34,078 nt of DNA from a virus, in the IMG/VR virus record IMGVR_UViG_3300025674_000180, positions 1 to 34,078 of that record; one strand, given 5' to 3'. This document shows, in pieces, positions 3,233 through 32,584 of the stretch. The position numbers and the translations under genes are program-made. The notes below the pieces were generated by a model, which was given only the letters and a program-made list of their open reading frames with translations, ran no database searches and was not told where the DNA came from. Numbering within the stretch: position 1 is the stretch's first letter; each line of letters opens with the position of its first letter.

Positions 3233-3510
3233 GCTACCTTCTCCCCGTCAATGTAGATATCACCGTTGCGCTGGTACACGTTGATGTCCAGTGCTCTCAA
3301 GCGGCTCATGGTGGTGCGTGTGGGCCATGCAATCAACGTACCGATACAGGGCCTAGCAATGCCAAAGTCGTCCACTGTGGCGATCAGGTGCCCGTGTAGG
3401 TACACCCGTGAAGTGTCGTCCTCCCGTAGGTAGGTTACCATAGTGTTTCCTTGAGACCAGTTCTCGTTGCGATTGATGGCCCGAATCATTTGTTGCTCTA
3501 CTTTTCTCAT
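3229..3510 (-). CDS. hypothetical protein, 93 aa
   Basis: ATG at 3510 follows GGAGGCATTGAC, a good Shine-Dalgarno; internal Met codons at residues 8 and 24 are less well placed. The sequence is mostly beta with regular turns (TMVTYLREDDTSRVYLHGHL, then NVYQRNGDIYIDGEKVA) and an Arg/Thr-rich middle. It looks like a compact, small DNA- or protein-binding fold seen among phage early proteins, but I cannot name it. A large imperfect hairpin precedes it at 3535-3582. Confidence 0.68.
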   Translation of the reverse strand: MRKVEQQMIRAINRNENWSQGNTMVTYLREDDTSRVYLHGHLIATVDDFGIARPCIGTLIAWPTRTTMSRLRALDINVYQRNGDIYIDGEKVA

Positions 3511-3534
3511 GTCAATGCCTCCAGTGGCTCGTGT

Positions 3535-3582
3535 GTTGACTCACTGCTGGACACTCTAGGGAATGCCCAGCGATTAGTCAAC
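3535..3582. repeat. nested inverted repeat (long imperfect hairpin)
   Basis: GTTGACT (3535-3541) pairs with AGTCAAC (3576-3582). Inside, GCTGG (3546-3550) pairs with CCAGC (3566-3570) across a symmetric 4/4 internal loop, and the inner stretch CACTC/GAATG adds a few more pairs. It lies between two minus-strand genes. No U-run follows, so it is more likely an RNA processing or stability element than a terminator. Its right arm contains GTCAACCC, the motif repeated upstream at 4149-4337. Confidence 0.55.
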
Positions 3583-3585
3583 CCC

Positions 3586-3915
3586 CTAGTACGTCTCTAA
3601 CTCTAACTCGTCGAATTTCTCGTCCACGTACGCCCAGTCTGCTAGGTCAACGTCCAGACCAAGAGACCGAAGCTCTCTGCCTACCTCCTGCACACTACGC
3701 AGGGTCCTATTACGCTCCTTTACCAGACCGACGTGCTCGTCACAGTAAAAGCTCACGTCCTCGTCGTTCCAACGTGCGGAGTTGTAGAACTCGCGTAACT
3801 TCTCTAGCGCCTCGTTCCACTCGCTGTAGTAGATGGCGTACATCTCAACAGCTTCTGACAGTGTGCGGTGGCTACCTTTGATGGTCTCGTTGAGACCGTA
3901 GTTGACTTGTTTCAT
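3586..3915 (-). CDS. hypothetical helical early protein, 109 aa
   Basis: First gene of the leftward arm. The ATG at 3915 (MKQVNYGLNETIKG) has AGGA nine bases upstream. The ATG three codons earlier sits on that Shine-Dalgarno and is less likely. Mostly alpha-helical and acidic, with a segment YYSEWNEALEKLREFYNS and a later KERNRTLRSVQEVGRELRSL that could form coiled coil. No motif recognised. First-transcribed position suggests an early host-interaction role; inference only. Confidence 0.68.
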   Translation of the reverse strand: MKQVNYGLNETIKGSHRTLSEAVEMYAIYYSEWNEALEKLREFYNSARWNDEDVSFYCDEHVGLVKERNRTLRSVQEVGRELRSLGLDVDLADWAYVDEKFDELELETY

Positions 3916-4090
3916 GAGAATCATTCCTATTTAGGGGTGGCTTCTGTCCCCCGTCGCCATGTGTGTATGAAACTACAGATCGACTCAGATGTATATAGTA
4001 AATATTCACACGTTTAGACTATTGACCGCCCGTGTTGTTCCGTGCTAGTCGCGTGTGCGCGTGTAATAAATAGCTCGCGTAGCAAAACCC

Positions 4091-4337
4091 GTGCCAACTT
4101 TGTCAGCTCAGGTTGTGACCAGAGGGTCCAACATAAGTCCTCACACTTGTCAACCCATGCAAACCCCATGCCAATTTTACTCATGCAAACATCGTGCCAA
4201 CTCTGGTTGCTACTACAGTTGGCCCCGTGTGTCAACCCTTGTTAACCCCCTGCAAGAACCATGCCAACTCTTGGAGCTAACATAGGTTGCAACCCGTGTC
4301 AACCCGTGGAAAAACTTAGGGCGGGGGAGGGGTTGAC
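4091..4337. repeat. clustered short repeats GTCAACCC and TGCCAA
   Basis: GTCAACCC occurs at 4149-4156, 4231-4238 and 4298-4305, with an inverted copy GGGTTGAC at 4330-4337; another direct copy lies at 3577-3584. TGCCAA occurs at 4092, 4169, 4195 and 4262, each flanked by similar bases (RTGCCAAYT). CATGCAAAC is present twice (about 4156 and 4183). The last two GTCAACCC copies form an inverted repeat around a G-rich loop. Such density suggests protein-binding sites (operators or iterons). Confidence 0.65.
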
Positions 4338-4472
4338 ATTTGTTTTACTTTTGTAGTAGCACCTCAGACACAAAATAGGTCAAAATTAGGAAAATTACCC
4401 TTTTATTTAACTCATGTAACCCGTTGTTTTTACTCATGTTTATACTACTACTGCTTTTCCCTCTAAAATAAC

Positions 4473-4501
4473 TTGACTTTTGTGTAGACTTGTGGTATAC
4501 T
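4473..4501 (+). promoter_or_regulatory. strong sigma70-like promoter for the rightward (structural) arm
   Basis: TTGACT (4473-4478) and TATACT (4496-4501) with a 17-bp spacer, five of six matches in each hexamer. It lies 28 bp before the first structural-arm gene. The -35 block (CTTGACTTTTG) is identical to that of the promoter at 9701. The palindrome ACTATAGT overlaps the end of the -10. Confidence 0.8.
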
Positions 4502-4529
4502 ATAGTCATAAACAGGGATAATTTTAATC

Positions 4530-4916
4530 ATGACTCAAGAAGTTAAAAAAAGAGGTCGTGGTAGACCCCGGAAGTCCGAAGTAGCTGCTGTAAAACCCGG
4601 TAACAAGGGTCAAGTAGGCCGACCAAAGGGTGACGCAGCGATAATTAACGAGTACAAGGCTAGGATGTTGGCTAGTCCTAAGTCTCGTAAGGTCCTAGAG
4701 ACTATTTTTGATGCTGCTTTGGACGATGACCATAAGAATCAGGCTGCTGCTTGGAAACTTGTGATGGACCGTATACTACCAGTGGGTGCTTTTGAAAAAG
4801 ACGTAGTAAAAGACGCTGGTAGAAACGCTATTCAGATCAACATTAGTGGCGTAGGTACTGCTGAAGTTTCAACACCTGAAGACATTATTGAAGGAGAAGT
4901 AGTAGGTGACTCTTAA
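4530..4916 (+). CDS. probable terminase small subunit (AT-hook-containing)
   Basis: The N-terminus holds AT-hook-like basic motifs (KKRGRGRPRK at about 6-15, then QVGRPKG), followed by a helical region (ASPKSRKVLETIFDAALDDD, AAAWKLVMDRILPV) and an acidic tail. A small DNA-binding protein just upstream of the terminase large subunit is usually the DNA-recognition subunit that selects the packaging site. The assignment rests on position, size (128 aa) and DNA-binding features, not on a diagnostic motif. It could instead be an AT-hook transcription regulator. Ribosome binding site is weak (AGGG 14 nt upstream). Confidence 0.55.
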   Translation: MTQEVKKRGRGRPRKSEVAAVKPGNKGQVGRPKGDAAIINEYKARMLASPKSRKVLETIFDAALDDDHKNQAAAWKLVMDRILPVGAFEKDVVKDAGRNAIQINISGVGTAEVSTPEDIIEGEVVGDS

Positions 4917-30714: not shown

Positions 30715-32584
30715 ACAACTCGCAGTTATTACCTGTACAAGCCAACTGTTGTGACCCTTCGGTCATGTCTGAGTTCTCAGAGATGTTCCAGTCAATAGTC
30801 TCTGGGAACGCCTCCTTCAACTTCTCAAACGTCTCCAGATCAATAGGTTCGTAAGGAGCCTGTTGGTACGTATGTTCTGAGTAAGGCAGGAAGCTTACGC
30901 CACTGATCTTGTCGAACTTGTTGTACAACCACTGACCTACCTCTAGGAACTCGTGGTCACGATAGTAACACGTCATTGACGGCTTATGCTCGCACCAGTA
31001 GTCCTGATATATCTCCCATAGCTCAAGTTGCTCCATAGCACCCATCTCAGAGGCCACCACAGCCCCGTCAGGAGACTTTATGGGGAAGGAGAATACCTTG
31101 GTAGTGGGTGACATCACGTCGTCCTCTACAGGGACTCCAGATGCTTCAAGAACTTGGCAGAGCGGGTCTCTTGCGTCCGCTCGGACTCGTCTAATGTACT
31201 GATCTGCATATCTAGGGTGGATGCCAGATGCAGAATCAACCAACTGACTAACAGTACCGGAAGGTTTAACAGCAGTAATGGCAGCGCTAATATTAATACC
31301 AAGCTTGTCAGCCCATTGCGCATTAGTACTAATTGCTTCCTCTTTGAGGGCCACCAGCCAGTCCTTAAGTTTCTCACGATCTTCCCTCCCTGACAACACA
31401 GCGTGGTCCATGATGCCTGTTAGTGACACACCCAGAAGTGCTTCCTCTTCGGTGTTCTTCTGCCATACCTTACGTAAGTATCGGAAGTCAGTTAGCGTAG
31501 CCTGAAGAGACCCAAGGATAGTTGCAACACGCACTTTTCGTTTGAGGTCCGACAGCGTATCTCCTGCCCTGACAACAACTTCCGAAAGATTGCAGAACTG
31601 GTAGGGCCGGAGGATGATCTCTGAGCATGGATTAGTTCCAAAATCATAGGTAGCATCTCGTCGCTCGTTCTTTGCAGCTTGCTTTTGACTTGCAACTCTA
31701 GAGAACATTCCTCGTTCTCCGGAGCGGGACTCGTATAAACTTTTCCACTCATTTAAAAACGCCTCAAAGTCTGGCTTCTCTGTATAACATGCTGAGTTAT
31801 TTGCTAGTCCTCTTTGAGGATTGTCAACCCACCATTGTCCAGACTTAGCTCTTCGTACTCTGTCGTCAGTGAGGTTACTAAGACTGATGAGAGCACTTCT
31901 GCGGACCCCGCCGACAACAACGATCTGTGCAATCTTACAGCAGAGGTCGTGACATTCGATGGAACTAAGTTTACGTCCAGCAGCTTCCCGAAAGACCTCA
32001 ACGGTGAACTTAAACAGATCGACAAGAGGTTCTGGACCACTTGCTCTACCTCCGAATGTTTTAAGGGCTGCCCCTGCAGGTCGTACTCCAGACACGTCCC
32101 ACTTTGGAAGTTGGCCTGAATAGAGCAAGCTAACAAGTTCTCTGTAAGCTTTAGCCCATCCAATCTTACTGTCGGCGACGTGTATAACGGTATCGGTTTC
32201 ATGAAAGTCCTCTGCTACTTCTGGTAGTTTAGATACGTACTGTCGTTCCACACTAAAGCCCACACCAGTGCCGCACATTAGGACGTACATCATCTCGTCA
32301 AATGCTTTAGGGTGGTCAATAGGCATGTAGGAGCAGTTAAACCCAGCTACATTGTCACGGTCCAAAGCCTCTCCAGCAGTCATGAGTGCTCTCATGCTAG
32401 GCATTACGTCCAACTCATGGATACTCTGGAAGATCTCACTTTGGTCAAACTCATTGAGTTGTACACGGTCTACCCAGTAGTCTAGGTAACGGTTTACTGT
32501 TTCTTCCCAAGTCTCCCTACGTTGTTCCTCTGGTAGGTAACGAGCGTAGCGGGACTTGTGTATGTACTGTTGATATGCGTCCAT
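30713..32584 (-). CDS. nrdJ: class II (B12-dependent) monomeric ribonucleotide reductase
   Basis: 623 aa, adenosylcobalamin-dependent RTPR-type. Key residues: Cys84 in FNCSYM, the active-site motif NPCSEI (Asn318, Cys320, Glu322) and Cys331 in QFCNLSE. The 11-residue step from Cys320 to Cys331 equals that of C408 to C419 in the Lactobacillus enzyme. KPSGTVSQLVDSASGIHPR is the conserved loop, and the tail has Cys616 and Cys621 for re-reduction. It converts ribonucleoside triphosphates to dNTPs without oxygen but needs host or environmental B12. About 100 residues shorter than the bacterial enzyme. AAGGAAAG precedes the ATG. Confidence 0.95.
   Translation of the reverse strand: MDAYQQYIHKSRYARYLPEEQRRETWEETVNRYLDYWVDRVQLNEFDQSEIFQSIHELDVMPSMRALMTAGEALDRDNVAGFNCSYMPIDHPKAFDEMMYVLMCGTGVGFSVERQYVSKLPEVAEDFHETDTVIHVADSKIGWAKAYRELVSLLYSGQLPKWDVSGVRPAGAALKTFGGRASGPEPLVDLFKFTVEVFREAAGRKLSSIECHDLCCKIAQIVVVGGVRRSALISLSNLTDDRVRRAKSGQWWVDNPQRGLANNSACYTEKPDFEAFLNEWKSLYESRSGERGMFSRVASQKQAAKNERRDATYDFGTNPCSEIILRPYQFCNLSEVVVRAGDTLSDLKRKVRVATILGSLQATLTDFRYLRKVWQKNTEEEALLGVSLTGIMDHAVLSGREDREKLKDWLVALKEEAISTNAQWADKLGINISAAITAVKPSGTVSQLVDSASGIHPRYADQYIRRVRADARDPLCQVLEASGVPVEDDVMSPTTKVFSFPIKSPDGAVVASEMGAMEQLELWEIYQDYWCEHKPSMTCYYRDHEFLEVGQWLYNKFDKISGVSFLPYSEHTYQQAPYEPIDLETFEKLKEAFPETIDWNISENSDMTEGSQQLACTGNNCEL

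Follow-up and report, generated by a model that had tools for sequence, protein, structure and literature searches.

A conserved control-region slot with sigma-54-type repeats in an uncultivated phage family and its varying fillings in related phages

The divergent control region and its frame

The window, meaning the whole stretch of viral DNA that was analyzed (34,078 bases), contains an intergenic control region at 3925..4529 that, according to the list of open reading frames, separates a leftward arm (first ORF at 3586-3924) from a rightward arm (starting with a TerS-like gene at 4530); the preliminary description of this locus had correctly placed it where two arms diverge. The leftward arm encodes a gp2.5-like single-stranded DNA (ssDNA)-binding protein, an endonuclease I, a Cas4-like exonuclease, and a DUF3310 protein, and the rightward arm starts with genes for an AT-hook, TerS-like protein, an endolysin, and the large terminase (TerL). 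The AT-hook protein (4530..4916, plus strand) was recognized by a PF02178 match, and from the position of its gene beside those for the endolysin and large terminase we infer that it may be the small terminase subunit, TerS. A predicted sigma-70-type promoter (TTGACT-17-TATACT with a TG; 4473..4501, plus strand), assigned by sequence match, would serve the rightward arm. No Rfam match was obtained for positions 3400-4600.

Within the control region, a left border, GGGTCCAACATAAGTCCTCACAC (4124..4146, plus strand), and a right border, CCTCAGACACAAAATAGGTCAAAATTAGG (4362..4390, plus strand), are both conserved in relatives, the latter lying 166 nt from the TerS-like gene in most close relatives. 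The left and right borders are alike in sequence and orientation, as in a direct repeat; an example is the pair GGTACTACTCAGACAC and GAGTACCTACTCAGATAC in one related locus (L268). A G-run, GGGCGGGGGAGGGG (4319..4332, plus strand), is likewise conserved near right borders: a run of four or more G lies within 90 nt upstream of 202 of 207 distinct right borders, compared with 406 of 4050 controls, and in 194 of these 202 cases the run ends 30-49 nt from the border. The G-run, typically CGGGGGAGGGG or CGGGGGGCCG, is kept beside nearly every type of filling. As read from the sequences, the slot is an array between two conserved borders, adjoining a conserved G-run and upstream of the AT-hook, TerS-like gene.

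Related phages and their slots

Relatives were collected by similarity to the TerS-like protein (best 80 of 598) and to TerL (best 80 of 599), and further relatives were added by the right-border pattern from among the matches listed. Slots were identified by a G-run close to the right border, with a minimum length of 60 nt; of 234 candidates, 10 fell short of this and were removed, leaving 224. The left border was recognized in 184 of the 234, and for the other 50 the last 250 nt were taken instead. Some contigs are counted twice among the slots (e.g., contig G002, which supplies both L172 and L173), and clustering at 85% identity reduced the 224 slots to 89 clusters, 49 of them with a class of filling. 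Enrichment of fillings was computed for the 224 slots (39,180 bp) against 4480 control segments of the same lengths from the same loci, and a TerL tree was built for the 148 of 224 slots with a long enough TerL match.

The phage family is uncultivated and, by inference, mostly marine. The phage collection that was searched held no nucleotide match to window positions 1-25000 and only distant TerL matches, all below 60% identity. Three TerL relatives (L403, L404, and L405) occur in metagenome-assembled genomes labeled Sphingobacteriales, Verrucomicrobiales, and Planctomycetaceae, one each, and are probably misbinned phage contigs; since the three labels belong to unrelated groups, no host can be named from the binned genomes.

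The 8-mer repeat

The 8-mer GTCAACCC occurs six times in the window compared with 0.93 times on average over 100 dinucleotide shuffles, none of which reached six. Five of these copies (3577, 4149, 4231, and 4298 on the plus strand and 4330 on the minus strand) had been reported in the preliminary description with the same positions and strands, along with a chance expectation of about one copy per window that agrees with the shuffles; a sixth copy at 31823, intragenic and outside the array, had been missed. The proposed five-copy array is reduced to a cluster of four copies within 4149-4337, as the copy at 3577 lies outside, in a conserved context of which the last bases vary: relatives have 22 occurrences of CCAGCGATTAGTCAA, with CCC next in 6 of the 22. 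This context (window 3567-3581 and relatives) is possibly a separate element.

The first copy in the cluster (4149..4156, plus strand) belongs to the left border (TTGTCAACCC), and 80 of 102 close-clade slots have TGTCAAC no more than 40 nt from this border. Two interior copies, assigned by motif count, lie at 4231..4238 and 4298..4305 (both plus strand). The inverted copy (4330..4337, minus strand) adjoins the G-run; of 121 close-clade slots, 52 have GTTGAC to the right of this run. This copy and the one at the left border make up a 14-nt inverted repeat that flanks the array. We read GTCAACCC as serving in part as a border element and in part as an accessory repeat for a putative binding protein.

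Sigma-54-type elements

The preliminary description had also noted four interspersed copies of TGCCAA. The four local copies (4092, 4169, 4195, and 4262) stand, and a 21-nt direct repeat (D1) has this hexamer as its conserved core, even though the hexamer shows no enrichment across the whole window (20 copies versus 17.0 expected). On the minus strand, every local TGCCAA is part of TTGGCAY-N5-TTGCW, a pattern with four matches in the window, all in the control region, versus 0.01 expected, and none of 100 shuffles reached four. The sigma-54 -24/-12 consensus is given as mrNrYTGGCACG-N4-TTGCWNNw in an excerpt of PMC2725144. All four are exact units of the sigma-54 type, YTGGCAC(R) plus TTGCW with GG and GC 12 nt apart, and by consensus match each TGCCAA is the -24 half of a putative leftward sigma-54 (RpoN) -24/-12 promoter element. 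Element 1, TTGGCACGGGTTTTGCT (4081..4097), lies outside the slot, left of the left border; elements 2, TTGGCATGGGGTTTGCA (4158..4174), 3, TTGGCACGATGTTTGCA (4184..4200), and 4, TTGGCATGGTTCTTGCA (4251..4267), lie farther right, and all four are on the minus strand. A unit at the place of element 1 was found in 30 of 100 close-clade slots, including 8 of 40 of the DnaA type.

The spacing between the two halves was examined by searching for TTGGCA on the leftward strand of the 420-nt stretches before slot G-runs, so that the second half was not selected for. TTGC followed at offset 12 in 217 of 253 copies and at offsets 6-11 or 13-16 in none. Units in the slots point leftward in 204 cases and rightward in 22 (n=226), and neighboring units are separated by a ladder of approximately 10 bp (26-28, 34-37, 46-48, 54-57, 66-67, 76-78, and 103-104; R 0.86 at period 10, n=113 distinct contexts), with the limitation that duplication can pass on both orientation and spacing, and the unit counts are therefore not independent events.

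Because the array precedes the leftward arm and its units face that arm, docking of RpoN is the simplest reading. We consider it close to an even call that the array docks a host regulator and thereby ties the leftward early arm to the state of the host. In favor of docking, none of the 24 records searched (some of which are fragments) encodes an integrase or a sigma-54 activator domain. Promoters of the sigma-54 type nevertheless require an activator, no activator site for the elements was identified, and tandem arrays of four to eight such promoters are unusual; these points weigh against RpoN docking. Repeats of GTCAACCC are present among the elements; one guess is that these accessory repeats would be the site for the required activator.

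Fillings of the slot in relatives

The window's slot contains no DnaA box. Across the 224 slots, the DnaA box TTATCCACA was counted at 301 sites versus 0.05 expected from controls, and the sigma-54 unit at 186 versus 0. A Fur-like pattern, TGANAATNATT, was counted 42 times versus 0.35 expected, and a LexA-like pattern, CTGT-N8-ACAG, was modestly enriched (11 versus 1.25); apart from sigma-54, these regulator names are matches to consensus sequences that we take to be those of DnaA, Fur, and LexA. Two further patterns, TAAAGATATC (14 versus 0) and GTTC-N7-GWAC (21 versus 1.4), were also in excess. At least one site of five classes is present in 167 of the 224 slots. The remaining 57 fit none of these classes, and 31 of the 57 contain a repeated or inverted 9-mer, compared with 249 of 1140 random segments. 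Arrays that match no named regulator were seen in six slots (L276, L314, L285, L291, L138, and L145), with examples such as GTCTTATATAAGAC repeats, TTGCAT repeats, and TTGGCAN7TGCCAA. Patterns for CRP, FNR, PhoB, NrdR, NtrC, ArgR, SlmA, IscR, parS, CtrA (TTAA-N7-TTAA), and Lrp gave no sites in the 224 slots, and those for IHF (1 versus 2.2 expected) and NtcA (3 versus 12 expected) were not enriched. The 57 slots without a class, the modest LexA-like excess, and the empty searches for CtrA, CRP, FNR, PhoB, NtrC, ArgR, and parS weigh against the docking reading. Additionally, GATC is rarer in the slots than in control segments (44 versus 106 expected).

On the TerL tree, at least 30 changes of filling are required (148 rows, five classes), some of which could reflect recombination between phages. 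In 9 of 224 slots (L010, L021, L031, L157, and others), DnaA boxes and sigma-54 units occur together, and these mixed slots are possible intermediates of a swap. Judged across these 224 related slots, the frame is constant while the filling varies. The conservation of the array in relatives, on which the preliminary description had made its reading depend, is thus a conservation of slot and frame, not of filling.

The canonical DnaA boxes, present at helical spacing in numbers of 5-9 in many relatives, would suit a replication origin made up of iterons or DnaA boxes next to an AT-rich region, as would the minimum of the window's cumulative GC skew, which falls in the 1-kb bin at 3501-4500 within which the control region begins. 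The preliminary description had proposed origin iterons and a GC-skew check; the minimum was found, although it coincides with the change in gene direction and the two are inseparable. For relatives with DnaA boxes an origin is possible, but sigma-54, Fur-like, and LexA-like fillings are not parts of an origin, and the window's own slot lacks the box. Origin iterons were rejected as a general explanation because these fillings share the slot with DnaA boxes, and we regard an origin function of the array as quite improbable.

The same counts bear on whether the array is a sponge, titrating a host DNA-binding protein (RpoN, DnaA, Fur, or LexA) as phage copies rise and disturbing the host regulon. 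Up to 9 DnaA boxes or up to 8 sigma-54 units are present per genome, the sites are dense and near consensus, and different regulators are used, all of which titration would accommodate. It would not require the 204:22 leftward bias or one fixed place by the early arm, however, and four sites per genome would be a small sink before replication. We hold titration to be unlikely and continue to favor docking of a host regulator.

Another reading is a set of operators for a repressor that the phage itself encodes and that coevolves with its sites; this would be the classic design for a divergent control region, and the array is both repetitive and phased. The fillings nevertheless match known host regulators, and a search through the 6 kb upstream in 72 sequences found no phage gene family that cleanly tracked DnaA-type versus sigma-54-type slots. 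The AT-hook protein was considered as a binder and rejected: its median identity to the window's protein is 92.1% in phages with sigma-54 slots (n=26) and 93.0% in those with DnaA slots (n=28), and because it is similarly conserved across slot types it is unlikely to be the binder. The protein-binding array that the preliminary description placed at the divergence of the arms is supported, in a slot that is conserved, and its operator idea comes close; its candidate AT-hook binder is not supported, as the protein does not vary with the array. A coevolving phage repressor is, in our estimate, very improbable, and docking of a host regulator stays the preferred reading.

Contig ends and the terminal repeat

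Two near-complete contigs have an exact terminal repeat that covers the slot approximately border to border (146 bp in G005 and 190 bp in G021), and G002 has a 2141-bp self-overlap with one end at the left border. By homology with G021, a direct terminal repeat is predicted in the window at 4142..4356. Among 170 known upstream contig ends, 21 lie within 250 bp of the right border, compared with approximately 9 per 500 bp farther out. These assembly data suggest that the slot may lie in, or act as, the direct terminal repeat of the genome. In four other contigs (G003, G004, G025, and G027) the end overlaps are found elsewhere than at the slot, and the ends at the slot may alternatively be caused by contigs breaking where the DNA is repetitive or varies between strains. 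The G-run was also considered as a cos site, a reading that was rejected because the contig ends within the slot are spread, with no single base preferred, and are not fixed at the G-run.

A terminal repeat would also suit a roadblock or anchor, in which any tightly bound host protein halts terminase, RNA polymerase, or the replisome at the concatemer junction, or aids the pull-in or protection of genome ends. This would account for interchangeable fillings in a conserved frame, and both the exact repeats of G005 and G021 and the excess of contig ends in the slot agree with it. The strand bias of the sigma-54 units is not predicted by it, though, and the assembly caveats above weigh against the end data. 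We judge a roadblock or anchor to be rather unlikely and return to docking of a host regulator.

Proposed role of the array

In the proposed mechanism, the host RpoN holoenzyme would bind the four elements and would fire, or be held, toward the leftward early arm, which comprises the ssDNA-binding protein, the nucleases, and, by position, ribonucleotide reductase. Early expression would depend on host state through this docking, and in relatives the same arm would be plugged into other host regulators. The broader proposal is of a phage family with a docking slot for general use, probably within its terminal repeat, into which RpoN, DnaA, Fur, LexA, or other arrays have been swapped repeatedly while the frame stayed fixed, making the host signal or protein the evolvable module; we put this forward tentatively, as a reading with somewhat less than an even chance. 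The pattern suggests a phage control region that could be pluggable into different host circuits.

If true, a lineage that refills one place with sites for varied host regulators would amount to a swap experiment performed by nature, and it could show which host signals are worth reading to phages. The slot type could then hint at the hosts of uncultivated phages, and the single frame could be tested with interchangeable inputs.

Comparison with known systems

Direct terminal repeats of the T7 type measure a hundred or more base pairs. The predicted repeat would be like these in its length; it would differ in holding host-regulator-like sites, and its ends here are contig ends. The four elements are like sigma-54 (RpoN) -24/-12 promoters in sequence and exact spacing, as far as the excerpt of PMC2725144 describes them, and are unlike usual sigma-54 promoters in forming, in a phage, a tandem array of up to eight putative units.

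The closest precedent is "lytic deferment" in alphaproteobacterial phages, for which excerpts of Mascolo et al. 2022 (PMC9437464) describe arrays of CtrA sites in intergenic gaps or direct terminal repeats, with CtrA binding demonstrated by gel shift and reporters; for DnaA sites, the excerpted text reports that no positional asymmetry was found. As in those arrays, dense sites for a host master regulator are concentrated in one gap or terminal repeat (here the sigma-54 units and DnaA boxes counted above), with a proposed link of the lytic program to host state. Unlike them, the 224 slots are without CtrA-type sites, and what fills the one slot varies between DnaA, sigma-54, Fur-like, LexA-like, and other sites. 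By analogy, the slot may resemble lytic-deferment arrays in its working without being one of them.

Phages of the phi29 family with Spo0A sites, and GIL01 and others with LexA sites, are described in excerpts of PMC9437464 and PMC4551915, and there too a host regulator holds or releases the lytic program. In these excerpts the sites lie at phage promoters with one regulator per phage group, and no common refillable slot is described. In the open-licence literature searched, the CtrA, LexA, and Spo0A cases were found and no refillable slot was described. Host-regulator arrays in lytic phages have been described for single regulators such as CtrA; what is added here is the putative sigma-54 identity of the main repeat and the observation that this repeat appears to occupy a slot in which relatives have sites like those of other host regulators.
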